From NCBI GenBank assembly GCA_938074565.1, contig CALJEQ010000001.1:124001-188000 (forward strand): a DNA stretch of 64,000 nt, read 5' to 3'. Below the pieces are notes generated by a model that had not been told where the DNA came from, made no database searches, and was given only the letters and a program-made list of their open reading frames with translations. The position numbers and the translations under genes were made by a program. The DNA comes from an uncultured Alkaliphilus sp. (lineage in GTDB: Bacteria > Bacillota > Clostridia > Peptostreptococcales > Natronincolaceae). Shown here one piece after another: positions 3,938 to 23,209 of the stretch (positions are counted from its first letter, which is position 1; each line of letters begins with the position of its first letter).

Positions 3938-3939
3938 TA

Positions 3940-3960
3940 GGGGTAGCTCTTAACTACCCC
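3940..3960 (+). terminator. Possible terminator of tmcAL
   Basis: GGGGTAG and CTACCCC form a perfect seven-base stem with a seven-base loop, directly after the tmcAL stop. The following sequence (TTAGACTTATG) is not a good T-tract, so termination here is uncertain. It could also help end the convergent pilus operon. Confidence 0.4.
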
Positions 3961-4029
3961 TTAGACTTATGAAAAGCCTTTATTTTCTTCGTCATTGCTA
4001 TAATTCAGCAGGCTTTAAAAAACAGCCGT

Positions 4030-4797
4030 CTAACGTAACGTATACCCCACCACGTTATAATTTTTATATTGAAAAAACTCACGATTAATCTCTATTTTAG
4101 AATCTTCCTGATAGATTACAAAAAAAGTGATGCCCTCCAATACATTAAAGTTTTGATACTTACTATTATAATCTCCTATATTACTTTCTTGGTTACGTAT
4201 CTCGATTGCCAACTGCCCTTCTTCCCTATAAATTGCAGTTTCATTTCCTATTACACTATTTATTTTATCAATTATTAATTGATTTTTTATTTCTGCTGTT
4301 GTTCCATACAGTTCCATCGGTTGATACACTTTTTCAGACGTTTCATCATAATAATAGATAGTATGATTCCTTGTATTAAAATAAATTTGTTTCCCCAACT
4401 GGTAATCTGTAAAATAGAAGGGTGGACTCCATTGGTCGTGTAAATTAGCAACATAGAAACGGTCATGTAAAACCAATAATTTCACCACAAGTCTAGATTT
4501 TATCCCTGCAAAGTTTTTTTCATGATGATAGTTTTTAAATAATACATCATAAAATTCCCTTAACAATTTATCTTTATTAATGGATACTTCCTGTTCATTG
4601 CTTCTATTAAACCCTTCTGCTATGTTATCTACATTAACTACTTCTTTATCAATGGAATTTATAAGGGCTTTTGCAGATAAATTTAAGTTTTGTTTTATTT
4701 CTCCAACTTGAAACTGGTTATGATTTAATAAAGCCATAGGAATGAATGAAAAAGCTATCATAATTATAATAATGATAATTGCTATTATTTGTCCCAT
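4030..4797 (-). CDS. Pilin-like membrane protein, last gene of the Tad operon
   Basis: The 255 residues begin with one long hydrophobic helix (residues 4-24, mostly isoleucine) and continue as a soluble extracellular part, the layout of a minor pilin or TadE/F-like pseudopilin. No named family is recognised. It lies 12 bases downstream of the next pilin-like gene in the same operon, with matching topology. A role in the tip or initiation complex of the Tad apparatus is inferred from position only. The ATG start gives an almost absent charged leader before the helix, as in the neighbouring proteins. Confidence 0.7.
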   Translation of the reverse strand: MGQIIAIIIIIIMIAFSFIPMALLNHNQFQVGEIKQNLNLSAKALINSIDKEVVNVDNIAEGFNRSNEQEVSINKDKLLREFYDVLFKNYHHEKNFAGIKSRLVVKLLVLHDRFYVANLHDQWSPPFYFTDYQLGKQIYFNTRNHTIYYYDETSEKVYQPMELYGTTAEIKNQLIIDKINSVIGNETAIYREEGQLAIEIRNQESNIGDYNSKYQNFNVLEGITFFVIYQEDSKIEINREFFQYKNYNVVGYTLR

Positions 4798-4809
4798 CTT
4801 ATCCCATCC

Positions 4810-5538
4810 CTACTGTTGTATATATGTAATTAGCCTTATTTCTCCATTGGAATAATAATTAATTTCCCTATTAAAATTACCGTTATCAAAAATATAATTA
4901 ATGCCCGTATTTCCCCTTTCATCGTCACTATCTCCGTAAAAAGGATTAGTCACATCTACATCAGGATGACTTCCATAACCATAATATTTTCCATCTCCAT
5001 TCATTTTAGTAATAACCAACATAGCCACATCCTCCTGTTGAGAATATTGATATATATCAGCCATTACATCATAACCTTTAACCATATCCTTTGCATTCTT
5101 AGCGATAATTCCCGTCTTTAATGATTTTATTTGTTGATTAATACCACTATTAATACCACTTCCCATAGCAGTAGTTAGTAACCTAGCAAAAATAGTATCA
5201 TTTCCATCTTCCAAAAAAACTGTAATACGATCCCCTATTTGTAGAGGCTGATTAAGAATTTCTTCCGAATGATAAAATACATCATAAACCCCATCCTTCA
5301 CTACTCTTTCTAGCTTTAGTTGGATAAAATAGTCACCATATTTATTTACTTGATCCCTTAATTCTTCATATAATTGAGAACTAAAATAACCTTGAGTGGC
5401 AACAATTTCCACTGTTTGATAGTTTATACGATTTACTTCCACTTTTATGTTTTCTTGTAGGAAATAAAAAGTAATCAAAAGAATGAGGAAGGTAATTAAA
5501 GTAATTGTTATTATTCCTGCTATTACTTTCCCTATCAT
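4810..5538 (-). CDS. Pilin-like membrane protein of the Tad operon
   Basis: A 242-residue protein with a single N-terminal hydrophobic helix (residues 7-28) and a large outer domain containing many Gly/Asp/Asn/Tyr residues towards the C-terminus (GDGKYYGYGSHPDVD). No known family is recognised. Its place among four consecutive genes with the same helix-plus-outer-domain plan suggests a minor pilin or surface subunit. It may be an adhesive or structural component; this is inference from size, topology and operon. Confidence 0.7.
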   Translation of the reverse strand: MIGKVIAGIITITLITFLILLITFYFLQENIKVEVNRINYQTVEIVATQGYFSSQLYEELRDQVNKYGDYFIQLKLERVVKDGVYDVFYHSEEILNQPLQIGDRITVFLEDGNDTIFARLLTTAMGSGINSGINQQIKSLKTGIIAKNAKDMVKGYDVMADIYQYSQQEDVAMLVITKMNGDGKYYGYGSHPDVDVTNPFYGDSDDERGNTGINYIFDNGNFNREINYYSNGEIRLITYIQQ

Positions 5539-5581
5539 TTACTTCCCCTCTTTCTATTTAGCTTCATTATTATTAACTTAA

Positions 5582-5932
5582 CTATCGAGTTAAGTTTACC
5601 TGTTTAAAAAGAATTGATGATAATTCTCCATTGGCATTATAGGATTTAGTCATATCAAACAACGCACCATCTAACACATCACTAGCCGTCATTAGTGTAT
5701 CATCATGCCTTCTTATAGCGACAGTAATACCACTTCCAGACTGTTTATGATAATTCTTAACCGTACTACCCGTTACAATATTAGGATTTTGTAGCATCTG
5801 ACTTACTTTATGTTGTTCTATGGCAGCTCGATCTCCCATGTCTTTTGCCCCGGAAACTTGCCCTAGTATGGCATAACCAATAAGACCTAAAACCAAAACT
5901 ATACCTACAATTGTTGCTATCGCCTTATCCAT
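5582..5932 (-). CDS. Candidate major pilin (Flp-type)
   Basis: At 116 residues this is the smallest of the set. MDKAIATIVGIVLVLGLIGYAIL gives a short polar start followed by one helix, then a mostly polar domain. This resembles Flp/type IVb pilins, which polymerise through the N-terminal helix. I propose it as the structural pilin. The outer domain is larger than in classic Flp pilins (about 50-80 residues). The cleavage site is not certain, and no prepilin peptidase gene is present in this operon. Confidence 0.6.
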   Translation of the reverse strand: MDKAIATIVGIVLVLGLIGYAILGQVSGAKDMGDRAAIEQHKVSQMLQNPNIVTGSTVKNYHKQSGSGITVAIRRHDDTLMTASDVLDGALFDMTKSYNANGELSSILFKQVNLTR

Positions 5933-5947
5933 TAATAACTCTCCCTT

Positions 5948-6334
5948 TTATTGGTTTTTTAAAGTAAATATTATTCTTCTTAGTTTATTCCCCTCATAAA
6001 ACACCTGTTTTTCAAATATTGCTTCATAAGGAATATAAAAACCCTCCTGTTGATAACCTTCTAATTGATACTCTTTCTCCACCCCCTCTACATTCACCTC
6101 CACCTTTACTTCTTCATCAGCACTATAGTAACGTATAATTGAAATCACGTCGCCACCAGTTAATTGACTCTTCCCTAAGGGTAAAATATCATTCTTCTTT
6201 ACTTTTTCTAACTCATCTACTTTTATTGCTGTGACCCTTATTAACTCTAAATTATTCCTCCACAACTCAATCCCTATCATAGAAAGGCTTAACAGTACCG
6301 TAGAAATAATAATTGTGGCTATTATATTCTTCAT
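5948..6334 (-). CDS. Pilin-like membrane protein of the Tad operon
   Basis: 128 residues: a helix at 4-24 (IIATIIISTVLLSLSMIGIEL), then a soluble domain of beta-rich appearance. It directly follows tadC. The pattern of Glu following the first hydrophobic run (I-E-L-W) echoes type IV pilin-like N-termini. No family assignment is possible from reading; a pseudopilin role is inferred from the operon. Confidence 0.65.
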   Translation of the reverse strand: MKNIIATIIISTVLLSLSMIGIELWRNNLELIRVTAIKVDELEKVKKNDILPLGKSQLTGGDVISIIRYYSADEEVKVEVNVEGVEKEYQLEGYQQEGFYIPYEAIFEKQVFYEGNKLRRIIFTLKNQ

Positions 6335-6361
6335 ATTTCATTCCACCCTAAGAAAATATTC

Positions 6362-7501
6362 TTAAAACATTTGATTCATATCATAGGCCGTTAACCAGGG
6401 TATAAGCATGTACATTGTTAGTAGACCAATCAATAAAAAGCAACCTACTATGCCCCATGCATTAATCAACTCTATTTGTCTCTTCACATTTCTTATTCGT
6501 TGTCTTTTCTCAATGTTAAATTCATTCTCTATATTAGTAATAGCTTGATCAAAATCATAATTATTTGCCTGATCTAGTTTTTCAAGAAAAAGTTTAACAT
6601 TAATATCCTTCTCTTCTTCAATATACTTTCTATAAATTGAAGTATTGCTGATGGTATTTTTCTTATTTTGAACTTCTATTTCTTTAAGAAATTTTTTATG
6701 GTAGTGGGATTTATCTATCAATATAGAAAGTACTTCCATAAAATTAACAGGTTTTATACTTCCATTTAAAATGATGAGACGTTTTAAAAAACGCAGTTCC
6801 TTCTTTACATCCGTCTGAATAAAAAAATTATAAATTTTTAAAATTAATTCAGGCAGAAAAAAGAACACTATTAAAATACAAGTGAGATAAGGGTAATTAA
6901 CAGACCTTGCCGAATAATAACCATATAACCTATAATATACCTTATTAGCCATAGTCAATGGAGGAAGCTCATATCCTATTTCTGATTCCTTTATTAGACC
7001 TAAAATCTTTTCCTGTACCTCTTCCTTAGATAGTAATAGACTTTCTTTTTTAGAAATATATCTAATAGAAAGTTTTAAATAGTGCAATTCTTCCTCCAAC
7101 GCCTTTCCTTCATCTACTTCTTGACTTCTATAGTGGTACAGTTCATCCACACGATAGTCATATTTACTATATACTTCAGAAGTATAATAAGAAACATTAG
7201 TTGAATGAATCAGCAAAAGCAATGTAAATGTCGTCACTACTAAAGCAATCTTGATGGCAAAAAATTCTGCCACTGTTAATCTTAAATAGTACAATATACC
7301 ATCATAAAAAGCATAGAGTTTTGAGTTTTTAGATGGTGCAATATACTTTTCAATAAAGTATACGAATTTTCCAATGTAACCACTTTTTGATAGTCCCCTT
7401 AAAGTCTTTATTTTAAATTGATTTCGTCGAAGCCAAAACAATTTAACGGCTAAAATAAGAGCTAATAATATTGGCACTAAGTAAACATACTGTGAAGTCA
7501 T
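6362..7501 (-). CDS. tadC: TadC-like inner-membrane platform protein
   Basis: 379 residues with type II secretion system F-like features: an N-terminal membrane helix, a further helix near residue 75-100, a long cytoplasmic part, a helix pair near 205-225, and a C-terminal helix (GIVGCFLLIGLLTMYMLIPWL). TadB and TadC form the membrane platform with which the TadA ATPase works to assemble or extrude the pilus. It sits 16 bases downstream of tadB, the standard order tadA-tadB-tadC. Sequence divergence is high, and the assignment depends on topology plus order. Confidence 0.75.
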   Translation of the reverse strand: MTSQYVYLVPILLALILAVKLFWLRRNQFKIKTLRGLSKSGYIGKFVYFIEKYIAPSKNSKLYAFYDGILYYLRLTVAEFFAIKIALVVTTFTLLLLIHSTNVSYYTSEVYSKYDYRVDELYHYRSQEVDEGKALEEELHYLKLSIRYISKKESLLLSKEEVQEKILGLIKESEIGYELPPLTMANKVYYRLYGYYSARSVNYPYLTCILIVFFFLPELILKIYNFFIQTDVKKELRFLKRLIILNGSIKPVNFMEVLSILIDKSHYHKKFLKEIEVQNKKNTISNTSIYRKYIEEEKDINVKLFLEKLDQANNYDFDQAITNIENEFNIEKRQRIRNVKRQIELINAWGIVGCFLLIGLLTMYMLIPWLTAYDMNQMF

Positions 7502-7517
7502 TATTCCTCTAACCCCT

Positions 7518-8510
7518 TTACGCAGTTCTTTCTAAGAATAGTAAAGAAACAATATACAATAACAAAGAAACAAGCATTAATATTTTGAAACCTACCCCAA
7601 TGGGACCACCATAAAAATCCACCGACGCCTGTCCTAATGCTCTCTGATTAAAGCCCTCTAACCATTTTACTCCCAATGGTAGAAATAGTGAAATAACAAC
7701 ATACATTCTGCTGGTTAAAGCCAGGTCTTTTTGATTTTCAATATCTATTAATATCTCTTCCGTTACCATTTCAAATTGACTCTTAATACTTTCTTTGCCA
7801 CCTTTATAGTAGGCCTGCTGTATTAAATTTAGTAATAGTGTAAAATATTCATTCTTGTAGAGCATCTCCATCTGTCTAAAAGTATTATTAATCTGTACTC
7901 CATCATTTTTTCTTAAAACGTTCCTAATTCTCGTCATTTCCCTTCTAATGGCAGGGTCAAAATCCACCAATGATTTATCTATTGCCTTTAAAATATCCCC
8001 TTCTGTGGTGAAGCGACTGTTAAGTATTTTATATGCATCTGGTAACAACTTAGTAAAATACATTCTTAATATTAATTGAATGGTATACAGAATACATAAT
8101 ATAAAAACAATACTTAATATAAGATAGAAAAGATATAAATACCAAATAATTTTAACACTTGGTAATACCACCACTAAACTTACTATAATGAGTACAATTA
8201 TTAGAAATAAAACAGCAACAGATTTTTCTTTATTTTTTTCATAGGAATTATCATTCAAAACACTAATTCTAATTGCAATATAACTTAATATTTTATCAAA
8301 CAAAACAACCCTAACTATTATTTTAGTCGCTTTTTTTAGAAGGCTAGATGGATTCTTTCTGATTAGATACTTTCTTTTTCTAACATATCCTTTGACTTTA
8401 AAAGTCAACAACATGATGGTTAACCCAATACTAATTAATAAAAATAACCATCCAATAAAATTTTTCAGTAAAGCATTAGTCAATACCTTTATTACTTCTA
8501 CAACTACCAT
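7518..8510 (-). CDS. tadB: TadB-like inner-membrane platform protein
   Basis: 330 residues with two N-terminal hydrophobic stretches, a helix pair around residues 95-150, a cytoplasmic T2SSF-type domain (the DFDPAIRREMTRI / NRRF-like region near 170-240) and C-terminal helices. The ATG follows AAGGTG and lies three bases after the tadA stop, so translation is probably coupled. It is the partner of TadC in the machine platform. Confidence 0.78.
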   Translation of the reverse strand: MVVVEVIKVLTNALLKNFIGWLFLLISIGLTIMLLTFKVKGYVRKRKYLIRKNPSSLLKKATKIIVRVVLFDKILSYIAIRISVLNDNSYEKNKEKSVAVLFLIIVLIIVSLVVVLPSVKIIWYLYLFYLILSIVFILCILYTIQLILRMYFTKLLPDAYKILNSRFTTEGDILKAIDKSLVDFDPAIRREMTRIRNVLRKNDGVQINNTFRQMEMLYKNEYFTLLLNLIQQAYYKGGKESIKSQFEMVTEEILIDIENQKDLALTSRMYVVISLFLPLGVKWLEGFNQRALGQASVDFYGGPIGVGFKILMLVSLLLYIVSLLFLERTA

Positions 8511-8513
8511 ACA

Positions 8514-10157
8514 TCACCTTACCCTTTGTTGCTCCATATGAAAGCAACGTTTAAAGTCTTCCAATTCTTCTTTAGAAACATATTCAGTCATTTTATTAGT
8601 GTAAATTTGTGAGGGTAAGTTAACGGGTTCCCACCGATCCGTTATTCTGTTATACCTTATTATTTCGTTATATTGGTAACATTTTTGGTACAGGTACTTA
8701 GACAAAGCTAGTTGCAAAAGATTAAGAGTGTTTGAGAGCTTTTCTTCTATTTTACCTTCTAATTTTATATCTGTAATAAGGTCTTGATTAACAAAACAAA
8801 TTTCTACTACTTTGTCCACAACAATTCTACCATTGGGCAATTTAGCCAAATGTATTACAATATCTATTCCTCTTGCAATATCCTCTTCTGCTTTTTCACT
8901 ATTGTCATACATATCTGTAGCCATTAATAAATTCCTACAATTTGCCACAGCCTCGAAGGGAGAAATTAAATGTATCGTTCCACCTACTCCTGAATTTAAT
9001 CTTAAACTAGAATTCACTAATTCATTCATTTCTTCTGGTTTAGTGATTTCGCCTACATACAAAACATCCCTTGCCATTTTTAACATCGCTTGAAATTGTT
9101 GAGCAATTGTTCTTTTAGGGTTTTCCATAAGAGTAATAATGTTTTTATGGGGATATTTTTTTCTTACTTGCAGTTCATCTTGAGAATCTAAAATACCGAT
9201 CCCCCAATAGTCTGGAACTTTTTCCATTGTAGCAGTTAGAAATGTAGATTTTCCCACACCCATATCACTACCTGACACAAGGTAAGACCCCCGCCCCCGT
9301 TGATTTATTATTAAAAGTTTATATATTAAATCATTAATTGTTTTATAGGTTTCCTTCATTTCTTCTAAAGAAATCTTTTTTATATTAAAGATTCTTTCGT
9401 TATAAATCAGATCTTCCTCTGTAGCTGTGGCTGAATAACCTGCAACAGTTATCCTACTGGCATTATACTTTGATGCCACAACAGTGGGATTTTGCTCATC
9501 ATATTGTACCTTTGCATTTCGGGTAGTCTTCTTTTGTATATTAATAATTCTTTCTTTATTCTCAAAAGATAAAAATGACAAATGGAGTTTTTTACCTTTA
9601 TAGACAATATAGATATAATCCTTATGTAGTACTCCCACTTCATTGATATTATGATGTTGCAAAGTATCAATAACGTCTTGTCCATCTTCTCTGGCGTAAA
9701 CCATCGAAGCCACCAGTTGCATCTTATTGTAATACTTATTGAAAGTAGTTTTTAGCGACATCATTTCCTTTACTGCAATTTCCTTTACTTCTTTTTCCCC
9801 AACAGAGTTTTCCAACTGAAAATTATCTATCAAATAGGAAATATCAAAACAATAGAGAAGTGCTTCAAAAATAACACTGACTGGATTTTTTAACCAATTA
9901 TTAAAATCCACCACCTTGTCAATCTCTTCATTGTCATATCCTAATGCACCCATCATTATTTTCACATACTGATTTATAACATAAGCCCTAGCTGCCTCAT
10001 CCCCCAATACAGCTCTGTCCTTCATTTCAGCAAAGCGATTTATTTCTGTCTCTGCTACTTTCCGTTGTATTTGAAATAGTTCACTATAAATATCAGGGCT
10101 ACCATATATTTCTTCAATATCTTTATTGATCTTTTCCAACAGTTGAAAAATGTCCAT
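8514..10157 (-). CDS. tadA: TadA/CpaF-type secretion ATPase
   Basis: 547 residues, a member of the type II/IV secretion ATPase (VirB11/PulE/CpaF) superfamily that powers pilus assembly. Visible are a Walker A GSDMGVGKS at residues 296-304, an acidic Asp-box region around DSQDE near 324-328, a Walker B-like RDVLYVGEI at 363-371 and the conserved histidine box GGTIHL at 392-397. The N-terminal half (1-250) is much less conserved. The start follows AGGAGG. It is the clearest marker that this operon encodes a Tad/Flp-type system, and it stands between the TadZ-like ATPase and the TadB/TadC platform. Confidence 0.9.
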   Translation of the reverse strand: MDIFQLLEKINKDIEEIYGSPDIYSELFQIQRKVAETEINRFAEMKDRAVLGDEAARAYVINQYVKIMMGALGYDNEEIDKVVDFNNWLKNPVSVIFEALLYCFDISYLIDNFQLENSVGEKEVKEIAVKEMMSLKTTFNKYYNKMQLVASMVYAREDGQDVIDTLQHHNINEVGVLHKDYIYIVYKGKKLHLSFLSFENKERIINIQKKTTRNAKVQYDEQNPTVVASKYNASRITVAGYSATATEEDLIYNERIFNIKKISLEEMKETYKTINDLIYKLLIINQRGRGSYLVSGSDMGVGKSTFLTATMEKVPDYWGIGILDSQDELQVRKKYPHKNIITLMENPKRTIAQQFQAMLKMARDVLYVGEITKPEEMNELVNSSLRLNSGVGGTIHLISPFEAVANCRNLLMATDMYDNSEKAEEDIARGIDIVIHLAKLPNGRIVVDKVVEICFVNQDLITDIKLEGKIEEKLSNTLNLLQLALSKYLYQKCYQYNEIIRYNRITDRWEPVNLPSQIYTNKMTEYVSKEELEDFKRCFHMEQQRVR

Positions 10158-10167
10158 TAAGCACCTC

Positions 10168-10989
10168 CTAAAAATTGAAGAAATTAAAAATAGTCTTTTT
10201 CTTTATTTCCTTGTGACAATTTGTTTCCACTGATAACATATCACACTTTTTTAAAATTTCTATTGCCAATAGTTCTACTTGATGGTGATATAAAGACTTA
10301 CCGTTTTCTTCTATCATTCCATAATTCAATAAACTACCATCGTTACATTCATTAAGTAATTTAGCATCAAAAGGAAGATTAATAATTTGATTTGAACTGT
10401 ATCCTAGTTGAACTAAATCTAAAGTTAACTCCTTAATATCATATTTAACCTTAACGTTATCGTATTGATCTAAATAACGGTTAACTACAAAGATTACTTT
10501 ATCCCTTTGATCACCATAAAGGTTTTTGTCCTTAATTAATCGAATTAAGCTCCTATCTTGATTTAAGATAACTAAAATAACTTTTGACTCATCAATAAAC
10601 AAATCAGTTAAATCATTTTTTCCAGCTATTGTATCAATTAGCGTAACGGGATAAACCTTTTTGGAGTAGTATTGTAATTGCTCTATATCTCCCTTATCTA
10701 AATGAAAGTAATGGTTGGATGCCATAATGTTTAATCTAGGGGTTACCCCTTTACACCAACTTTCAGAATCTAATGTATCTAGACCTATACCCGTTAAAAT
10801 ATTATTTTTAAACTCATCTAAACCTCTTGTCCATTTTGTATTACTAAGATAATCTTCAATACTATAACAATACTGATTAATATCAATTAACAACACCTTA
10901 TCCTTCAGTATATTTCCTATATTAATAGCAATATTAATTGCTGTTACCGTCTGACCTAACCCCTTTTTTGGAGCAGTTATCGTAATCAT
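10168..10989 (-). CDS. TadZ/CpaE-like ATPase with degenerate P-loop
   Basis: 273 residues with a ParA/MinD fold. The first strand and P-loop read MITITAPKKGLGQTVTAINIAINIG, where the usual KGGVGKT is replaced by KKGLGQT: the catalytic lysine of the deviant Walker A is a glutamine. The next motif, VLLIDIN, is conserved. TadZ/CpaE proteins place Tad machines at cell poles and are known to be atypical ATPases, so loss of ATPase activity is plausible. It lies 10 bases upstream of tadA and 14 bases after the CpaB-like gene. A second, intact P-loop of the same fold is fused to the kinase two genes upstream. Confidence 0.8.
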   Translation of the reverse strand: MITITAPKKGLGQTVTAINIAINIGNILKDKVLLIDINQYCYSIEDYLSNTKWTRGLDEFKNNILTGIGLDTLDSESWCKGVTPRLNIMASNHYFHLDKGDIEQLQYYSKKVYPVTLIDTIAGKNDLTDLFIDESKVILVILNQDRSLIRLIKDKNLYGDQRDKVIFVVNRYLDQYDNVKVKYDIKELTLDLVQLGYSSNQIINLPFDAKLLNECNDGSLLNYGMIEENGKSLYHHQVELLAIEILKKCDMLSVETNCHKEIKKKTIFNFFNF

Positions 10990-11003
10990 TCATCAGCACC
11001 CCA

Positions 11004-11807
11004 TTAGTTATTATCTCTAGTTTGATAGTTTATTTCTTCATCCTCTACATTGGTAGACACCTTGTTTTTTTCCGTTACTGTTCTTAATCTTAATTCTGCT
11101 ATTTTTGACTGATAATTAAATGTAATTAATGAAGGAGGTTGATTTGTATCTAAATATAATCTAGTTTCTAACTCCCCCAATTGCCCTGCCATGAGTAAGT
11201 TTCTATACTGCATTTCATCCACTGCCAACACAATAGTATAACTTTTTTCTTTTAAATTTTCTTCCGTCGAGTTAGAAATAATCTTCCTTACCTTAATTTT
11301 AGGTACAACCACATCATAATCACCATTTCCATAATTAACGATCATGTCAACTATATTACCTGTCTTCACTTCATCGGCAACTAGACTTGCCACTTCAAAC
11401 TCTTTTAGTCGTTCATGTTCTCCATACCAGTTTTCCTCTGTATAAAATTGGTCTACCAGTAGTTGTTGCCCATAGCTTAAGGAATACTTAGTAATCATCC
11501 CTTTTATCAACTCTAAATCAGAAATACTACCCTCTACTGAATACTTAATGGGTACTTCCATTAGGGTAATTGTTTCATTTAATATTTCATCTGTCATTTC
11601 TGTATAGTGGGAAATCCCATCAGCAGCCGTCACCACCGCCACCCATCTACGGGGCATAACACTTTCATCCATTTCTGCCCTTAACATCGATTCTATCTGA
11701 ATCTTAACCAGAGGTATTTTAATATTGTTATAGTAATAAAATATACCAGCCAGCAATAAACACATTAAAATGGCAGCTATTACAACTTTTTGATCTTTAA
11801 TACTCAT
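11004..11807 (-). CDS. CpaB/RcpC-like pilus assembly protein
   Basis: 267 residues with one N-terminal membrane helix (residues 9-26) and an extracytoplasmic part containing a likely SAF-type domain. The segments ITLMEVPIKYSVEGSISDL and GNIVDMIVNYGNGDYDVVVPKIKVRKI match the general CpaB pattern (release of a signal, then a V-D-V/I strand and a modified beta sandwich). In Gram-negatives CpaB links to the secretin; here, in a single-membrane organism, it may instead contact peptidoglycan or guide the fibre. The ATG has AGGAGG six bases upstream. Confidence 0.7.
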   Translation of the reverse strand: MSIKDQKVVIAAILMCLLLAGIFYYYNNIKIPLVKIQIESMLRAEMDESVMPRRWVAVVTAADGISHYTEMTDEILNETITLMEVPIKYSVEGSISDLELIKGMITKYSLSYGQQLLVDQFYTEENWYGEHERLKEFEVASLVADEVKTGNIVDMIVNYGNGDYDVVVPKIKVRKIISNSTEENLKEKSYTIVLAVDEMQYRNLLMAGQLGELETRLYLDTNQPPSLITFNYQSKIAELRLRTVTEKNKVSTNVEDEEINYQTRDNN

Positions 11808-11841
11808 AGTATTCCTCCTGTTTTATCCACCGATTTCAAAA

Positions 11842-13572
11842 TTAATTATCTCTATAATATTGCTGACTTAACTTCACCATATCCTCCTTGATTTTATTCC
11901 CCCCAATAGCAACAGGGGGGACTCTTTCTTCCAAACCCTTTAAAATGGCAGTATAATCTTCTTTAACTTTATAGACTTTATTTATTTTCATATTAAAATG
12001 AATATCTTTTTTTATCTCTATATCTTTAAAAAACCCTATGATATTTCTTTCATTTATAAAACCTTCTTCTTTATACCTATTGATGATTAGATCTACACCC
12101 TCTAACCTTCTACTATTTAAGTAGAGTTTTTTAGGTAACCGATTCAATAAATTTACCCGTTGATCTACAACCAGTATTTTATGATCTGCCAAAGATAAAA
12201 TGTGGTTAATTTCCTCCCCAGTGGTGTAACTACCTAAGTCAACAATTACCACCTGTGCTTCCGTTTTACATTGAAGGATAAGGTTTTTTAATTGTTCTAT
12301 GCTTAAAGCCACATCCACATCCCTATGTTCCGAATAGAAGGTTAAGTATTGATTAATATTCTGAGCTTTTAAACCAGTGTCTGGTTCAGCATTACTAAGA
12401 CAATTGGAAAAATCCTTATTAAAGTAATAATAAATATCTTTGTTTTCAAAATCTGCATCTATTAAAGTAGTTTTTATCCTTTTTTCAGATAATATCCATG
12501 CTAGATTAACTGCAATAGCAGTCTTTCCAGTGGATTCTGGACCCATAATAACAATAATTTTTTTATAGTCTAGTGGTGCATTATAAGTTTCATTTGTTTT
12601 AAAAGATGAAAACAGCCCTTTTCTTTTACTCTCTAGGCTATTTAATACCTTGATTAATTCCTCCATCGTTTGGTATCGCTTATCCATTTCCTTGTGTAGA
12701 CATTTTTCTAATATTTCTATGAGTCCCTTCGATATATGGGTTAACTGTTGTTTTACCGACATACCTTCTATTGGTAATTTCCCGCTCAATAAATAAAACA
12801 TCATTATCCCCAACCCATAAATATCAGTTCTCACATCAGCATAACAGTTAAATTGTTCAGGTGCTGCGAATTTAGCTGTTACTGCTACTGTCGATTTAGA
12901 CGCCTGTTTATTAACTTCTCCCTTGAACTCCATCGACACGCCAAAATCAATTAGTACAGCTTTATCATCAGGAGTAATCATTACATTTGAGGGCTTCATA
13001 TCTCCATAAATTATAGGATGAGGCTTCATTCCATGAAGATAATTAAGTACATCAGCCAATTGTTTACTCCATTTTACAACTTGTTTTTCCTCAAAAGATT
13101 CTTCTGCTTTTAATTTCTTATCCAATGAAACTCCCTCGATGTAACTTTCCACTATGTATGTTCCCTCTTTATCTTCAAAAACGTCTACAATGCGGGGTAA
13201 GTGAATGTGATTAAGCTTTTTTAATATATCTTCTTCTGCCGTTGATAAAGCTTTATTTTTCCCATCCCTTTTATGTAAAACTTTAACTGCCCATAAATTT
13301 CCTAGCTTTATATTTCGACACAAGTAAACTTTCCCCATACCGCCTTCTCCCAAAAGACCCTCCACCAAATATAAGTCATTTAATACTTCACCCTTTAAAC
13401 TACAGTCCCTATTATTATCAAGGGGTTCTGTTAACAATTCATCATCACTCAAAGGCATGGTATAATCCTCTTCATTATCATCAATGATGACACTTTTACT
13501 ATTCTTTTTGTATTTTTCCTTAAACAGCAATAAACTTAAAATGATAACTATCATTAATAAAAAAAGATGCAC
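11842..13572 (-). CDS. Membrane-anchored Ser/Thr kinase fused to a ParA/TadZ-like ATPase
   Basis: 576 residues from a GTG at 13572 with GGAGGGAG nearby upstream; a longer frame from 13629 has no ribosome binding site. Order: one membrane helix (residues 2-17), a short linker, a Hanks-type kinase (about 70-310) and a P-loop ATPase of ParA/MinD type (about 340-576). The kinase shows GEGGMGKV (75-82), the lysine of AVKVL (97), YGDMKPSN with the catalytic Asp at 191, DFG (209-211) and APE (237-239). In place of HRD it has YGD, so it is a non-RD kinase. The ATPase shows GPESTGKT (344-351) and LIDAD. It is first in the Tad operon and could link a phosphorylation signal to machine placement or activation. 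There is no PASTA domain, so it is not PrkC. Confidence 0.85.
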   Translation of the reverse strand: MHLFLLMIVIILSLLLFKEKYKKNSKSVIIDDNEEDYTMPLSDDELLTEPLDNNRDCSLKGEVLNDLYLVEGLLGEGGMGKVYLCRNIKLGNLWAVKVLHKRDGKNKALSTAEEDILKKLNHIHLPRIVDVFEDKEGTYIVESYIEGVSLDKKLKAEESFEEKQVVKWSKQLADVLNYLHGMKPHPIIYGDMKPSNVMITPDDKAVLIDFGVSMEFKGEVNKQASKSTVAVTAKFAAPEQFNCYADVRTDIYGLGIMMFYLLSGKLPIEGMSVKQQLTHISKGLIEILEKCLHKEMDKRYQTMEELIKVLNSLESKRKGLFSSFKTNETYNAPLDYKKIIVIMGPESTGKTAIAVNLAWILSEKRIKTTLIDADFENKDIYYYFNKDFSNCLSNAEPDTGLKAQNINQYLTFYSEHRDVDVALSIEQLKNLILQCKTEAQVVIVDLGSYTTGEEINHILSLADHKILVVDQRVNLLNRLPKKLYLNSRRLEGVDLIINRYKEEGFINERNIIGFFKDIEIKKDIHFNMKINKVYKVKEDYTAILKGLEERVPPVAIGGNKIKEDMVKLSQQYYRDN

Positions 13573-13622
13573 TATTGTTCTCCCTCCAATAATTTTAATT
13601 TTTATATGTATGTTTTTAGTTA

Positions 13623-13652
13623 ATTGCATATTTGAAAATTGATATTTGTCAA
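13623..13652 (-). promoter_or_regulatory. Probable promoter of the Tad operon
   Basis: TTGACA (13652-13647) with an 18-base spacer before TGCAAT (13628-13623). The -35 is perfect and the -10 matches four of six positions. Its start point would fall about 40 bases upstream of the GTG at 13572, inside the longer alternative frame, which supports the GTG start. Confidence 0.5.
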
Positions 13653-13726
13653 AAGAATTTTTTATATTATTAGGTATATATTCTCATTGACTTAACATAA
13701 ATTACATAAGTAAGTATATCACCCTT

Positions 13727-13753
13727 TGGCGAAATTTGCAATATTTTGTCGAA
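13727..13753 (+). promoter_or_regulatory. Two tandem Spo0A-box-like sites
   Basis: TGGCGAA at 13727-13733 and TGTCGAA at 13747-13753 both fit the 0A-box core TGNCGAA, with the flanking T and A bases typical of the extended box (TTTGGCGAAA and TTTTGTCGAATT). They point the same way and are spaced 20 bases apart, about two helical turns. They lie 75-100 bases upstream of the Tad operon -35 and about 300 bases upstream of the divergent plus-strand gene. Confidence 0.55.
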
Positions 13754-14046
13754 TTTCATTAATTTATTTAAAAAACTTGTTAATTATATGCATAAAACCT
13801 TGTAAATAGCAAATATGTATTGAAGCTGACCACCTTCCTATTTAAAAAAATATACTTTTATTCAAGTTAATAGAGAGTTTACTTAATAGTTTAGACGCTA
13901 ACATTAACAAAATTTTTTTTGACATTAAATGGAGTAAACCTGTTGTTTATGTTTTAATATTTATAAGCATAATAGTAGTACAAAGTATTATTAACATTAA
14001 TTGATCTTCTCCTTTTTTAATCATATACATAAATTAGGGTGATAAA
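13754..14046. other. Remainder of divergent spacer, no gene seen
   Basis: AT-rich DNA between the Tad operon and the gene at 14047. A TTGACA occurs at about 13918-13923 on the plus strand but no good -10 is found at the proper distance. No small gene with a ribosome binding site is seen. Confidence 0.5.
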
Positions 14047-14613
14047 ATGAGAAAAAAAAGATATTTTCATAAACTATATGAATTTGATGAAACTAGTAAA
14101 ACCTACTTAATTGAAGTATCTCTGGACAATTATGAAGATGTTTATGATGACTGGGATGCCTCTCCATTTAAAAAAAGAGACATAGAAGATGAATTCAATG
14201 ATTTCATTGTAAATTCATCACAGGATATTCCAGTTAACTTTAATTTGAGTATCCTTCTATATTTGCCTTTATCAAAAAAAGAACCTCAAAAAGAAGTCAC
14301 TTTAATATCTGCCTATAGAAACTACTATGCCTATGCTTTAGAAAGATTAAATAAAGTAAAAACAAACCTTTATAAAAAGATTACCTTTTATTTATTACTT
14401 TCAATTTTCCTTTTAAGTATGGGCTATTTTTTCTTTCGAGGTGATGAAGGTGTAGTTAGAAGTGTTCTTCATGAGGGCATTTTTATTGGTGGATGGGTAT
14501 TTTTATGGGAGTTTTTCACTAGTATTGTTATCACTAGAAGAGAAATACATGATGAATTTAAAATATTTGAAAGATTATACCGTTCAGAGATTAAGTTTTT
14601 TTATTATGAATAG
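14047..14613 (+). CDS. Conserved-type two-helix membrane protein of unknown function
   Basis: 188 residues. The N-terminal half is soluble and acidic, with a DDWDASPFKKRDIEDE stretch and an IPVNFNLSILLYLPL strand. Two helices follow (about 117-133 and 145-160, containing EGIFIGGWVFLWEFF), and the tail reads RREIHDEFKIFERLYRSEIKFF. I have the impression of a widespread uncharacterised family with this same order and the GGWVFLWE motif, but no function is known to me. The ATG has AGGGTGAT upstream. It is divergent from the Tad operon and could share its control region; a link is not shown. Confidence 0.75.
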   Translation: MRKKRYFHKLYEFDETSKTYLIEVSLDNYEDVYDDWDASPFKKRDIEDEFNDFIVNSSQDIPVNFNLSILLYLPLSKKEPQKEVTLISAYRNYYAYALERLNKVKTNLYKKITFYLLLSIFLLSMGYFFFRGDEGVVRSVLHEGIFIGGWVFLWEFFTSIVITRREIHDEFKIFERLYRSEIKFFYYE

Positions 14614-15128
14614 TAAATAAATCCTTTAAATTCTGTAGTTGAAATTTTTTCTGATATGTAAACTGAAATAGCCTAGATTAATATTTAAAGGGTGATATAC
14701 TTTTTTAGAAATATCACTGATTTATGAATTATATTATAAATATTACATTAAAAAGGTCTGCCTCCAATAGAATATAGGAATCAGACCTTATCTTGATATG
14801 TTTTTGTCTTTTTACTTGTTAATGATAGGGGGCAGTTCAATACAGAGTTTGAGCCTTTAGTAGTTGGTTGCTAATAATTTAATTAGGTGCCACAAGTAAA
14901 TATAGTTCCGTTTAATTATCTTAATTCATCTGTACGTAACTCTAATAATTTTACACTTTATATAGTATGGAGCTATAGTAACCTTCTCAGATTGAACATG
15001 TTTATTTAACTTTTATATTATATCATCTTGGACAGAATCTCTCAATGGATTAAATCATTCCACTAGTAAGGAAAATTCTAACTGTATAGTAAACTAATAC
15101 AAATTGTTTCCATATAAAAAAGAAAAAT
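14614..15128. other. Non-coding stretch with a long-loop inverted repeat
   Basis: AT-rich, without an acceptable gene. AAGGTCTG (14753-14760) and CAGACCTT (14782-14789) form an eight-base stem with a 21-base loop, followed by a T-rich region (ATCTTGATATGTTTTTGTCTTTTTA). It could be a terminator for the membrane protein gene at 14047, 140 bases away. Confidence 0.4.
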
Positions 15129-15157
15129 TTGACAATATAATCAATATTTGTTATTAT
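15129..15157 (+). promoter_or_regulatory. Promoter of the secreted protein gene
   Basis: TTGACA (15129-15134), a 17-base spacer and TATTAT (15152-15157), a strong sigma-A promoter about 23 bases before the probable start of the leader to the gene at 15187. Confidence 0.8.
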
Positions 15158-15186
15158 ATGTCTATAATAAGAAGAGGAGTGATCAA

Positions 15187-15879
15187 ATGAGAAAGATGTT
15201 TAGTTTATTAATTTCATTAATGCTGTTAGTTACTATTTTAGGTAGTAATGCTTATGCTATGGAGGTAGCTCAAGACGATTTTAACACTGTGATCAAACAA
15301 GATGAAACAATAAGAGAAGTAACACCACAAGAATACTATGAAATGATTGCCCAAGCTAGAAATATTTCAGTAAAAGATGCAGAAAAAATCACAAAACAAT
15401 TAATTAGTGAACACCAAAGAAGCCTAAAAGAAGCAAAAAAAACTTCTAATGATGATGAAATATCGACACAATCAATTAGCTGGGGTACTTCTTGGTCATC
15501 AAACGGCGGAAAATATTATCATGTTGTAATATATAAGCAGCAAAATGAAGGTGGTGGAATGGTTATTGAAGTAGGAGTTCCAGGCATTGTTTATCTTTAC
15601 GGTTCGTATGCAAGAGAATTTGTTTCTATTGATACGAGTGCTACTTATGCAAGACCTGTAACTAGCGGTACTTATACTTATTCTTCTGCTACATTAGTTT
15701 CATCATTAATAAATAATGAAGTACATTTAAATACAAGAGGAACTACAGAAGTAACTACAACCATCGCACAAGAAATGGGGGTTTCTATAGCAGATTTACT
15801 AAGTTACGGTTTTTCAACTTCAAATAATTTTACATATAGAAAAACCACTACAATTGCTCATATTGAAAAACTATATTAA
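15187..15879 (+). CDS. Secreted protein of unknown function
   Basis: 230 residues from the ATG at 15187, which follows GAGGAGTGATCAA; an upstream ATG at 15148 lies within the promoter. A clear signal peptide (two basic residues, a hydrophobic core, then NAYA cleaved before MEV) directs export. A middle region (about 40-90) is helical and charged; after it comes a Ser/Thr/Tyr-rich beta-like domain with repeated Thr-Tyr strands. No catalytic motif or known family is recognised. It has its own promoter and terminator, so it is a monocistronic gene. Confidence 0.8.
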   Translation: MRKMFSLLISLMLLVTILGSNAYAMEVAQDDFNTVIKQDETIREVTPQEYYEMIAQARNISVKDAEKITKQLISEHQRSLKEAKKTSNDDEISTQSISWGTSWSSNGGKYYHVVIYKQQNEGGGMVIEVGVPGIVYLYGSYAREFVSIDTSATYARPVTSGTYTYSSATLVSSLINNEVHLNTRGTTEVTTTIAQEMGVSIADLLSYGFSTSNNFTYRKTTTIAHIEKLY

Positions 15880-15916
15880 TTCTATAGATTTAACTATACT
15901 TAAGTAATAATATATT

Positions 15917-15970
15917 AACTCCTTTTTAACAATGAATTATTCAGTAATTCTATGCTAATAAGGAGTTTTT
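15917..15970 (+). terminator. Terminator of the secreted protein gene
   Basis: AACTCCTT (15917-15924) pairs with AAGGAGTT (15960-15967), followed by TTT. The loop is long (35 bases), so efficiency is uncertain, but the T-run and position 40 bases after the stop fit. Confidence 0.55.
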
Positions 15971-16568
15971 AATTTAACGGTTAATACCCTCTGTTGTTAA
16001 GATACAGAAAAATCTAAGGGACCTTGATTATATTACTAGGTTTTACTTTCCATTTCAAAATGATAAAGACATTTTAACAAACTACATTAAATTAAGTTTT
16101 TTATGTTTAATACTCAAGTATATTAATTTAAAGAAAATTTTTAATAAAATAGTAAAAATCCCAATAACTTGAAAAATATTTTTAGGATCCTTATCACAGT
16201 TTCTCCATTATCAAAAATGGTTCTATAATATATAGTGTTGGTGGATAAACCAGTACTAATTTTTTTCAAAAAATATGAGACAAAGGACCAAAACTCAGAT
16301 AAAATATAATTACCACAACCATATTCTAAAGAAGTAATGTCGTATGTCTCGTAATAATTCTATACTAACCTATTAAATTTAAGATAAAAATATAAATTTT
16401 TCAAAACCATAATGTATCTTATTCTACTATTAATAAAATCATTGTAGATAATACTCTCCTACATTAAAAACAGCCTATTATGAATCCTCTAACTCTTAAG
16501 CCAATATAAATTATATCGTTAAGTTTTGTGTTAAAAGTTTTCACAAACACTACTTAACAAAGAACCCT
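15971..16568. other. AT-rich non-coding DNA, nothing recognised
   Basis: About 600 bases without an open frame of useful length carrying a ribosome binding site, and without a recognised RNA. It separates convergent genes and resembles eroded DNA at the edge of an accessory region. Confidence 0.5.
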
Positions 16569-17597: not shown

Positions 17598-20216
17598 TTA
17601 ATTTATTTTTTCTAACCACTCCTTATTTTCTTTTGTTCTAACCTCTGTAAGTTTAGCTAATTCCAGCTTTATCATATCTTTGGTAATAGCTTGATGGGTC
17701 GACAATCGTAATATCGGTATATCATACTTTTTGAATATACCTTCCTTCTTTTTATCCCTTACTAACTGTTCTGGGTTATTTAAATGAAACTCCGTACCAT
17801 CAACTTCAATACCAAGAACTGGATTGTGATTAAATTTATTAGATATAATAAAATCAACACTACTTCTAGGCTGTTTTATAAATTTCTTCTCAATTTCCGT
17901 ACATATATCTCGATTTAAAAAGATGTCAGAAAGCCTCACTTCATGAGCAAATGAATAACAACGAAACCTTTCTTCTTCAAGTAATTCTATTAGAATTGAA
18001 TAAATAATTTTCTCACTATCATATTTTATATTCTTTTTTACTTGTTTCATTGCTTCCTTTCTAGCCAACAACTTACTAGAATAATCCTTATATAGTAGAT
18101 CAAATACAGAGATAACTCGGCCTTCTTCAATATTCTTTATATCATGGTATTCTATATACTTTATTAAATCACCAACATCATTTCCATTTTTATAAAATGC
18201 ATCTGTATTAGTAATTATAATTAATTGCTTTTCTGCCCGTGATACTGCTACATTAATCATTTGTGGATCATTTACAAATGACATCTTCACTTTTGATTTT
18301 ACTGATTGGTCAAGTACCGTGGAAAACACTATAATTGGTTTTTCTCTACCTTGATATTTATGAATAGTGTCCTTTTCAATCTCTTCTGAATTTATTTCTT
18401 TAGCAAATTCAATTTGTAACCTGTAGGGTGCAAGCAATCCAATGTCACTCAAATTTTCAGAGTAGAGTTTAATATTGTATCCACTATCTTTTTTAATAAG
18501 ATGATTTAGCTCTTCTAATTCTCTCTGATTAAAAGTTCCTTTTCTCCCCCTAGTGAGTTCACGCATATGGTTCCCTTCAGCTGTTTTTATAACGCTTATT
18601 GGATTACTATTAGAGGAATTATTATAAACGATTAGGTCACCCTTATAATATTTTAAATTACAAAATCGAATAATATCAGGATGACATCTATAGTGTTCTT
18701 GTAATAAAGTCCTTTCTAACGCATCACCGTATAAACATTCTAATGAGTCCATTATACTTTTAGACTTATAATCATATGCTTCATTTTCAAAGCTTACATT
18801 AATTTTTTCTGGTATATGGGGTAGTTGCTTTTGATCTCCTACAATAACAATTTTTTTAGCACAGGATAATGGTAATACTGCTTTTACAAGATCTAATGTC
18901 GAAGCTTCGTCAACAATAACATAATCAAACATAAATTCTGATGCTACTGAATATGTCACGGAGTAAGCTGTACTTAAAATTACTGGATAATCTTTTATAA
19001 AAGAACTGAAATCCGTTTTATACGTATCTATTGTGTATTTCTTCTTCTTTTTAAACCTTTGTCTTAAATAATTATTGAAAATTATTTTAGAGACTTGGTG
19101 ATGTTTATCCGCTAACTCATTAAAATTTTTATTTTGTAATTGTTTTGTATATTCTGCTAACTTATCTTCTAATTCTTTAATCTTTAAGTCATAATATATT
19201 CGTTGATAATGGGTGATAACCTCATAATCTCTTTCTTTAAGATGCTTAAACCTAAATATACCATACTTTGTAAAAAGCTTAAATTTATTTGTAAACGTTA
19301 GCTTCTCTTTTTCAGATATCATAATCCGATGATCTACTAAGAAATTAATTATTTTTACATGATTCAAAGAAAGAAAGCTGATATAGGGTTTATTATCTAA
19401 ATCGTTTATTTCTTCATGTGCATTATTGTAATATTTTTTCTCTAATCTTAATGCATTCAATTCCTCATTAATTATTCTCTTTTGCCGATCTTTTTCCATT
19501 AAATCTTCCAATTGTGTGCTATACTCTATTAATTCATTTTGGAACATCTTAAGGCTTTCATCATCTAATTCCTCCTCACTTAAATCAGATGACTCTAATA
19601 CTTGATTTAAGAAGAACTCCTCTTGGTTACTCTTACTTCCTAGTAGAGCAAAAATAAAGCCATAACCTTCTTCTTTTAATTTATTTTTTACATTATCGAC
19701 TGCTGCATTATTATTAGACACAATAGCAATATTCTCGCCTCTTACCATAACATTGGCAATAATATTTAGTATAGTTTGTGTTTTACCTGTTCCAGGAGGT
19801 CCTTGAATAATGCTTAATTCATTTTTAAAAACCTTTCTTGTTGCATCTAATTGGCTTTTATTAAACCTAAATGGAAACACTAAAGGCTTATCATCATTGA
19901 ATGTTTCAAATGGAGTACCATTTAAGTATTTATGCAATAGGGAATTTTCTTTTATTGTTATTTTCTCATAATATTTACCAAGTGCAGAAAAATCAGTACC
20001 AACTTTAATACTATTTGCAATTTCAGTAAACGCTATAAATGGGTCCTTTAGCTCATTTGATATTTGTTCAACAACAACTCTTTTACTTTTATGACTAAAA
20101 GCATACGGAAAGTCATTGCCTTTAAATACTATAATATATTTGTCATCATGAATTTCATAACTAGCAATTTCATTTGTTTTATCAATACCATCAATAAGAA
20201 TTCTTTCTGTGGGCAT
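17598..20216 (-). CDS. DNA2/NAM7-type superfamily 1 helicase with C-terminal PD-(D/E)XK-like nuclease domain
   Basis: 872 residues. The helicase starts with FNKSQLDA (118-125) and Walker A GPPGTGKT (139-146). Walker B DEAS (436-439) and motif III VGDQKQLP (459-466) lie 290 residues further on because of a long charged, coiled-coil-like insert (about 200-400). Later motifs include QEHYRCHP and a VSRAE segment typical of UPF1-like SF1 enzymes. The last 130 residues resemble a DUF2726-type restriction endonuclease fold: D at 788 (SSVDFII), E and D in GIEVDG (804-806) and the RDKKK helix (820). Such fusions are frequent in defence islands. The gene stands alone on the minus strand, next to OLD and SIR2 genes. 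The start has only a weak ribosome binding site (AAAGG, 10-12 bases away). Confidence 0.85.
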   Translation of the reverse strand: MPTERILIDGIDKTNEIASYEIHDDKYIIVFKGNDFPYAFSHKSKRVVVEQISNELKDPFIAFTEIANSIKVGTDFSALGKYYEKITIKENSLLHKYLNGTPFETFNDDKPLVFPFRFNKSQLDATRKVFKNELSIIQGPPGTGKTQTILNIIANVMVRGENIAIVSNNNAAVDNVKNKLKEEGYGFIFALLGSKSNQEEFFLNQVLESSDLSEEELDDESLKMFQNELIEYSTQLEDLMEKDRQKRIINEELNALRLEKKYYNNAHEEINDLDNKPYISFLSLNHVKIINFLVDHRIMISEKEKLTFTNKFKLFTKYGIFRFKHLKERDYEVITHYQRIYYDLKIKELEDKLAEYTKQLQNKNFNELADKHHQVSKIIFNNYLRQRFKKKKKYTIDTYKTDFSSFIKDYPVILSTAYSVTYSVASEFMFDYVIVDEASTLDLVKAVLPLSCAKKIVIVGDQKQLPHIPEKINVSFENEAYDYKSKSIMDSLECLYGDALERTLLQEHYRCHPDIIRFCNLKYYKGDLIVYNNSSNSNPISVIKTAEGNHMRELTRGRKGTFNQRELEELNHLIKKDSGYNIKLYSENLSDIGLLAPYRLQIEFAKEINSEEIEKDTIHKYQGREKPIIVFSTVLDQSVKSKVKMSFVNDPQMINVAVSRAEKQLIIITNTDAFYKNGNDVGDLIKYIEYHDIKNIEEGRVISVFDLLYKDYSSKLLARKEAMKQVKKNIKYDSEKIIYSILIELLEEERFRCYSFAHEVRLSDIFLNRDICTEIEKKFIKQPRSSVDFIISNKFNHNPVLGIEVDGTEFHLNNPEQLVRDKKKEGIFKKYDIPILRLSTHQAITKDMIKLELAKLTEVRTKENKEWLEKIN

Positions 20217-20436
20217 ATTTTATTCGCCTTTCTTATCTATTTCATTCTACATCAGTGCTTTACAGTTTTCTTGTGATTCTTTATGATTTTATTCAATTTC
20301 TAATTGCTATTTCTACACTTGTGTCATTATTTCCTCTATATTCCAGTAAATTTATTCAATATTTTCTTGTATTTTAGCTAATAGTAACCGTAAAAGAATT
20401 GACGTATAGAAAGAAAATAAAGTAATTGATACAATA

Positions 20437-20474
20437 AATCCAGTAGAGGATAAGTTTACCTACTCTACTGGATT
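20437..20474. repeat. Eleven-base inverted repeat next to the broken transposase
   Basis: AATCCAGTAGA and TCTACTGGATT form a perfect stem with a 16-base loop, 25 bases beyond the stop of the broken transposase. The plus-strand side has ATGTTTTTAC after it, the minus side only TTTATTGTATC, so it is a poor terminator in the gene's direction. It may be a transposon-end hairpin or a terminator. Confidence 0.5.
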
Positions 20475-20499
20475 ATGTTTTTACATTTATTTCTAACTT

Positions 20500-20933
20500 T
20501 TAAATACTATCTAAGCATTTCCATTTATATTCTTCTATACTTTTAACCTTACCGACCTTTAACGAATTTTGATGAATATATCTCATTACTCCTAATAAGT
20601 ATATATCATCATCTACAACTTCACTTTTATATCTATCTTGAAAAAGATGCCCCACTCGATCATATTTCTGATTATACCAATATACAAAGCTGGCTCCGAT
20701 ACGCCTCATTATAATCACTAAATCTTCTTTTCCCTCATGAATTAAAATAGAATGTGATTATCCATTAAGCAGTAGGCATATATTTTATATTGGCTTATAT
20801 CTTTAAATTCCAATAAAGTATGTAAAAACCTTTCCTTATCTTCTTGATCTAAAAATAATATTTGCTTATTAATTCCTCTTAATATTATATGATAGATTCC
20901 TGTACTACTTTTACTCCTTGCAGTTCTTGGCAT
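20500..20933 (-). pseudogene. Broken RAYT/IS200-like Y1 transposase
   Basis: Two adjoining reading frames make up one relic. The first (20933 down to 20742) begins MPRTARSKSSTGIYHI and reaches YAYCLMDNH. The second (20718 down to 20500) continues MRRIGASFVYWYNQKYDRVGHLFQDRYKSE and ends YIHQNSLKVGK. Both match the REP-associated tyrosine transposase (Y1_Tnp) pattern. In the junction the intact family reads DNHVHxLI; here DNH is followed by a frame shift that removes the second His of the HUH metal site, although a frame reading ILIHEGKED continues beyond it. The C-terminal part seems cut short. The product would be inactive. Confidence 0.85.
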
Positions 20934-20983
20934 TTTATCACACTGGATTAGCATATCATATATATATTGGTTTAAGCAACCAT

Positions 20984-21060
20984 AAGAACCGTCCCTGTGG
21001 TTCTTTGTAGAATAGCATATTGGTGTTTGTAAGACAATTGAAGCGTCCCCTTGTACCGTC
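20984..21060. repeat. REP-like remnants upstream of the broken transposase
   Basis: AAGAACC-GTCCCTGT-GGTTCTT (20984-21005) is a hairpin, and GAAGCGTCCCC plus ACCGTC follow at about 21040-21060. The GTCCC core inside a short palindrome is what one expects of REP sequences cut by RAYT enzymes in Clostridia. They lie at the 5' side of the transposase relic. Confidence 0.5.
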
Positions 21061-21143
21061 AGTAGTTGGAGACATATTATATCAATATCTATTTAAGTAA
21101 GCTGTTCGCTACGTATTAACATTGATTTTTCAGTATCTTTTAA

Positions 21144-22886: not shown

Positions 22887-23082
22887 AGCCAATCTCCTCT
22901 GCTAATAAGTAATTTTTAATATAACCTACTTATTCAATTCTACACTAACCCAAATTTTCCTCTAAATTCCAACAAAATAATTCAAATATTTTTATATATT
23001 TAAGTTAACAACAGGCTACCTACACCCAAACAGATACCCCTTTCCGTATTATGAGTAAAATAAAAGGGTTAAAAAAGCTAAA
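22887..23082. other. Spacer between SIR2 and OLD genes
   Basis: With the terminator that follows, 323 bases separate the two defence-type genes. The part next to the OLD gene must hold its promoter, but no single candidate stands out in the AT-rich DNA. Confidence 0.4.
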
Positions 23083-23120
23083 CGACTAGAACCCAATGGA
23101 ATATTATAGGGGTCTAGTCG
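23083..23120 (-). terminator. Terminator of the SIR2 gene
   Basis: CGACTAGA and TCTAGTCG (extended by CCC/GGG) form a stem with a loop of about 15 bases. On the minus strand TTTAGCTTTTTTAACCC follows. It lies 90 bases after the SIR2 gene's stop. Confidence 0.6.
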
Positions 23121-23209
23121 CTTAATTGAGTTTTTATTATTTCCACTGTCTACTTGACAAGGAGCATATCAATACAGAGTTTAATCTGTTACTTAGAATA
23201 GCAAAAAAA

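Follow-up and report, generated by a model that had tools for sequence, protein, structure and literature searches.

A Ser/Thr Kinase Joined to a ParA/TadZ-like Domain at the Head of Tad Pilus Operons in Clostridia

Introduction

Why should a Ser/Thr kinase stand at the head of a Tad pilus operon, in one reading frame with a ParA/TadZ-like ATPase domain, and what could it do for the pilus machine? A gene of this kind lies in the DNA analyzed here, a stretch of 64,000 nucleotides from an uncultured Alkaliphilus sp. (the window). A preliminary description took its product for a switch that links an outside or lipid signal to assembly or placement of the machine, with a separate TadZ-like protein as a second, inactive partner. 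Within the literature that we searched, few studies deal with how Gram-positive anaerobes control their Tad pili, and we found no description of a kinase–TadZ fusion in open-access publications. We find that in many Clostridia a Tad operon has a kinase–ParA head where other operons carry a non-kinase, probably receiver-like module. An invariantly intact kinase on a TadZ-type part would mean that phosphorylation is wired into the pilus machine.

Results

The head gene encodes both domains in a single frame. The frame previously noted at positions 11,842–13,572 is real but lies on the minus strand: the plus-strand reading of this interval is riddled with stops, and the minus frame is open for 595 codons (longest open reading frame 11,842–13,629). 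A 576-aa protein is likelier than one of 595 aa because the GTG at 13,572 has a good ribosome site upstream (GGAGGG) and the ATG at 13,629 has none; residue numbers here follow the 595-aa frame, from which 19 is subtracted for the shorter form. From its N terminus the minus-strand product comprises a hydrophobic, putatively membrane-spanning helix with which the 576-aa form opens almost immediately (13,518–13,575; approximately residues 18–37 by hydropathy, helix 16–42 in the structural model), a Ser/Thr kinase domain (12,664–13,365; residues 89–322), and a ParA/MinD-fold domain with a GPESTGKT P-loop (11,845–12,570; residues 354–595, delimited by the model, structure matches, and hhalign). 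The full-length model is weak (pLDDT 69, pTM 0.45), and the mutual arrangement of the kinase and ParA halves cannot be read from it. A frame error that merges two separate proteins is ruled out by single-frame fusions in relatives, namely a genus-mate (56% identity) and three genomes of another family (41–42%), among 43 fusions overall.

On all sequence features tested, the N-terminal half is a Hanks-type Ser/Thr kinase for which phosphotransfer is predicted. It matches PF00069 well over the cut-off (E = 2.7e-45) and has the catalytic set K116/E132/D210/N215/D228 together with the loop IIYGDMKPSN. The corresponding residues (VAIK Lys, helix-C Glu, catalytic Asp, Asn, and DFG Asp) are kept in 43/43 fusions. 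The non-RD loop reported earlier is present in the window protein as YGD, but we reject it as a functional signature, since the position holds R in 31/43 fusions and G in 8/43 and the loop is thus not a conserved feature. The N-terminal membrane helix occurs in 6/43 fusions, and both it and the YGD loop are quirks of the lineage. The proposed outside or lipid signal is not supported: no folded part lies beyond the membrane, and few fusions have the helix.

Ahead of the kinase, 9/9 members of the window's kinase clade have a T[EQ] motif, including L062 (L numbers denote loci), which combines this kinase with a different type of ParA half. In the window protein it falls at residue 67 of the 595-aa frame (13,507–13,524 region, coordinates approximate). 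The motif is a candidate autophosphorylation site, and docking of an FHA protein on it would be a guess; the genome's FHA matches sit on contigs other than that of the window, and in the window operon we identified neither a PP2C phosphatase gene nor one for an FHA protein.

The C-terminal half is related to ParA and TadZ proteins. It contains the GPESTGKT and LIDAD motifs, and its Pfam match is weak (CbiA, 2.6e-5, slightly under the cut-off). The predicted domain (pLDDT 82) matches ParA/MinD folds at Z 18–24, with 3ea0 as the best match (Z 23.8) and TadZ (3fkq) scoring Z 19.1 across 211 residues. By hhalign it shares homology with the ParA domain of heads in kinase-less operons (8e-56), and control profiles of kinase and TadB gave nothing. 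These comparisons bear out the ParA/TadZ relationship first proposed from motifs. They also dispose of an unrelated GTPase family, since ParA, MinD, and FlhG top both structure lists. In a comparison with BY kinases (Wzc/CapB), the C-terminal profile matches CapA/CapB chains at 4e-11; no BY kinase is among the 50 structure matches listed for the ParA model, which excludes nothing.

The two halves have been conserved very differently. The head's GPESTGKT retains the P-loop lysine and lacks the signature lysine of the deviant Walker A motif (KGGxGKT/S). Across the fusions, only 8/43 ParA halves keep the P-loop lysine (first strand), namely those of the window protein and its nearest relatives (L055–L061), and the other 35 have lost it. 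Set against kinase residues that are intact in every fusion, this pattern argues that selection has held the kinase and that most lineages seem able to do without ATP binding by the ParA half. Judged by these residues, the conserved activity of the fusion is that of the kinase, itself predicted.

Behind the head lies a tight operon of the order CpaB–ParA–TadA–(TadB/TadC-like), with all genes from 11,842 down to 4,030 on the minus strand and separated by short gaps. A CpaB/RcpC-like protein (11,004–11,807) is assigned from its operon position and two matches below cut-off (TIGR03177, 4.6e-6; PF16976, 0.0012). It is followed by a second, stand-alone ParA/TadZ-like protein (10,168–10,989; profile matches to MinD/ParA and TadZ 3fkq) and a TadA-like motor ATPase (8,514–10,157; T2SSE 9.4e-7, above cut-off; TIGR03819 2.6e-13, below its cut-off). 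The next product is a TadB-like membrane protein (7,518–8,510), a weak assignment from position and similarity to the TadB-place protein of L061 (2e-4; hhalign 9e-4), and a membrane protein in the place of TadC (6,362–7,501) is assigned by position only. Four proteins with N-terminal hydrophobic stretches complete the run: one of 128 aa in a pilin-like place (5,948–6,334), one of 116 aa (5,582–5,932), one of 242 aa (4,810–5,538), and one of 255 aa encoded by the last gene (4,030–4,797). All four recur in L056 and L058, two loci of a different family within the same taxonomic order, which have the identical gene order and relatives of every window operon gene. No Flp pilin was identified among the small membrane proteins of the window operon. 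The genome has several A24 prepilin peptidases, none of them on the window's contig, and further TadA-like genes elsewhere, which makes this operon one of several Tad systems in the genome.

An Rfam scan of window positions 3,500–16,500 gave no match at the gathering threshold and no riboswitch-type element at the operon, and a promoter and terminator scan was no richer than shuffles. Elsewhere, a c-di-GMP-I riboswitch (65 bits) lies just past the point where a kinase-headed Tad operon ends (L059:3,255–3,338, minus strand). Between the window's Tad operon and rplU/prp, PADLOC matches mark a group of defence-like genes (17,598–24,871): an MkoA-like helicase (17,598–20,216), an OLD-type nuclease (21,144–22,892), and a SIR2/ThsA-like protein (23,210–24,871).

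The second ParA protein was thought to be inactive, and in the window its P-loop lysine is indeed replaced by glutamine (KKGLGQT). Relatives carry GKS or GKT instead, so the description holds in some lineages only. In the window, L056–L058, L064, and L066 the losses of head and partner are complementary, the head having GKT without the signature lysine and the partner the signature lysine with GQT or GTS. Complementarity fails as a general rule, given that L059–L061 have the P-loop lysine in both proteins and L118, L124, L153, and the SGVTS group have it in neither; it is possibly a local feature.

Kinase–ParA fusions are widespread in Clostridia. Searches with the protein, its alignment, and a TadA profile, together with reading of loci, recovered the 43 fusions, nearly all from this class, contrary to the earlier statement that Hanks kinases rarely carry such a domain. 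Besides the window's type there are four C-terminal sub-types, which are profile-related to each other or to stand-alone ParA. TadA is nearby in 31/39 fusion loci and in 0/75 loci of kinases with other C-terminal parts, which upholds the proposed link to Tad operons. The corresponding P value (8e-21, Fisher's exact test) is descriptive only and overstates the link, because most seeds of the ParA sub-type profiles (degenerate groups) came from Tad-linked loci and because related loci and genomes are not independent. Among the 8 fusion loci without TadA, at least four are short contigs. When 60 loci were picked by TadA and not by kinase, kinase heads were a minority and single receiver-type TadZ proteins were commoner.

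The fusion usually heads its operon, as the preliminary description expected, but not always. One sub-type is located directly before TadA, and two fusions (L143 and L162) lie in long, full-length loci without TadA. Two others, each seen in a complete context, are orphan heads. One, in Alkaliphilus transvaalensis (L055), the nearest sampled genome and of the same genus as the window, occupies the window's site, where its relative has the whole operon. The other (L111:8,537–10,270) is 73% identical to the head of Herbivorax and stands at the site where Herbivorax (L156) has a whole Tad operon. Both genomes hold Tad operons elsewhere, in the case of L111 one with a non-kinase head (L292), and we infer that the orphan heads may act in trans. 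A. transvaalensis also has a CpaB–ParA–TadA–TadB–TadC run without a head gene (L225:7,296–12,354); its TadA is sister to that of the kinase-headed L061 in one tree, a placement that a careful tree leaves unsupported.

By sequence comparison, the N-terminal module is exchangeable, kinase or non-kinase, on the same ParA domain. Some operons (L064–L068, L226, L242, L243, L292, and L293) share the gene order and head ParA domain of the kinase-headed operons and have a non-kinase N terminus. The non-kinase module is probably receiver-like: the N-terminal part of single TadZ proteins is receiver-like by hhalign (2e-39), and for the non-kinase heads themselves the same likeness is weakly supported (70% probability in the L064 group and less in the L226 group). 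Mapping the kinase label on the TadA tree takes five changes or more, and starred branches of the head-ParA tree force at least three. The clearest pair is Herbivorax L156 (kinase) and G562 L292 (non-kinase), in which CpaB, the second ParA, TadA, TadB, and TadC are 79–89% identical and the head ParA halves 64% identical over 310 aa, while the N-terminal halves show no match. Conversely, the L156 head is 64% identical, from its N terminus through the kinase, to the L110 head of Acetivibrio alkalicellulosi, which has a different ParA type. In careful trees L156 falls inside a non-kinase group for both TadA and ParA, with inner branches that are only moderately supported. A second mixed group joins L059–L061 with L064 and L066.

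Discussion

We propose, with moderate confidence, that the head protein is a Tad-machine kinase, docked at the TadA motor by its TadZ/CpaE-like domain. A Hanks-type Ser/Thr kinase would take the N-terminal place of the receiver-like module in TadZ/CpaE-type heads, and the C-terminal ParA/MinD-like domain would carry it to the motor. In Caulobacter, a ring of CpaE dimers has been modelled about the motor CpaF, in which adjacent dimers probably touch via their receiver domains (PMC13170226); similar docking of the head ParA domain would set the kinase beside TadA. The ParA-like domain may keep a docking and dimerising fold that, in most lineages, needs little or no ATP turnover. Candidate substrates would be Tad parts such as TadA, the second ParA, or those ends of CpaB and of the platform proteins that face the cytoplasm, and their phosphorylation could gate pilus assembly, or extension and retraction. 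In the window lineage the N-terminal helix would additionally tie the head to the membrane. The orphan heads and the fusions without TadA (L055, L111, L143, and L162) count against this proposal, although the genomes of the two orphans have Tad operons at other sites; so do the failure to identify a PP2C or FHA gene in the window operon and the weak receiver likeness of the non-kinase heads.

A bolder arrangement, which we offer tentatively and think rather less probable, starts from the window pair, whose P-loop lysine comes from the head and whose signature lysine comes from the partner. Head and stand-alone ParA could then form an unequal heterodimer that replaces the CpaE homodimers round TadA, and the N-terminal module, receiver-like or kinase, would be a plug-in signal input, so that natural domain swapping would have rewired the same pilus motor between signalling modes.

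Alternatively, the ATPase could be the output. A signal would prompt the kinase to phosphorylate either the ParA half of the same protein or the stand-alone ParA, and the two ParA proteins would then place the machine through dimerisation or localisation driven by ATP, a model close to that of the preliminary description. The GKT kept by heads of the window lineage and the complementary P-loops of the window, L056–L058, L064, and L066 fit such a role. The idea of a switched ATPase is nonetheless weakened by the loss of the P-loop lysine in 35/43 heads beside an always intact kinase, and further by the groups in which neither protein has the lysine (L118, L124, L153, and SGVTS) or, as in L059–L061, both do. 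We therefore regard this as unlikely.

Still less probable is a general signalling kinase that uses its ParA domain for placement, acts on the cell envelope or on different targets, and lies beside the Tad operon by chance or in loose association. Such a kinase would account for the orphan copies and for fusions without TadA, but hardly for the presence of TadA in most fusion loci and in none of those of other kinases, for an association repeated in separate TadA clades, or for swaps on the same ParA domain within near-identical operons. A part in an anti-phage defence module, to which PADLOC matches of the kinase to the PD-T4-6 and MADS6 models and the defence-like genes 4–11 kb upstream might point, is very improbable, as the matches span the kinase domain only, relatives keep the Tad operon and not the defence genes, and no examined fused locus was chosen for defence neighbours.

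The natural operons L156 and L292, which hardly differ outside the N-terminal half of their heads, make the function of the module directly testable, and the contrast also bears on why TadZ/CpaE proteins have any N-terminal module.

Comparison with Known Systems

Among known kinases, PknB, StkP, and PrkC share all catalytic residues with the head, and the PASTA-kinase model NF033483 matches residues 80–339 at 2.8e-43. The head differs in having no PASTA domains, a ParA domain after the kinase, and a helix that is N-terminal to it; the NF033483 match covers the kinase part alone and reaches 148.8 bits against a cut-off of 450, which places the head outside the PASTA kinases. Closer to the pilus, a stand-alone kinase that is 46% identical to the window kinase is clustered with TadA in L063. 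In that cluster (L063:7,496–12,045) the kinase is not fused, and its neighbours include a PP2C phosphatase, a DUF6382–FHA protein, and a prepilin peptidase.

Ser/Thr kinases are also encoded inside a Gram-positive export-machine cluster in type VII secretion variants (TscD and TsdD), of which T7SSg and T7SSh adjoin Tad genes (PMC11217815). No ParA/TadZ domain is described on those kinases, and TsfV joins a TadZ-like receiver to an AAA+ ATPase and is no kinase fusion (PMC11217815). Small ubiquitin-like, large FtsK/EssC-like, and WXG100-like genes lie directly after the Tad operon in L226 (13,213–20,000) and L292 (13,350–18,839), resembling the T7SSg/h loci that adjoin Tad genes (PMC11217815).

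Among Tad proteins, the head resembles TadZ/CpaE, as in Eubacterium rectale TadZ (PDB 3FKQ). Both have a ParA/MinD-fold C-terminal domain behind an N-terminal module, and the head is likewise encoded with CpaB, TadA, and genes in the place of the platform proteins. There are also differences: the N-terminal module is an intact Ser/Thr kinase and not an atypical receiver, the window operon adds a second stand-alone ParA protein, and the head is without the signature lysine of the deviant Walker A motif. Because we looked for both the receiver and that lysine and found neither, we do not file the head under TadZ/CpaE. It is probably a kinase-bearing relative of TadZ/CpaE that works at the same place.
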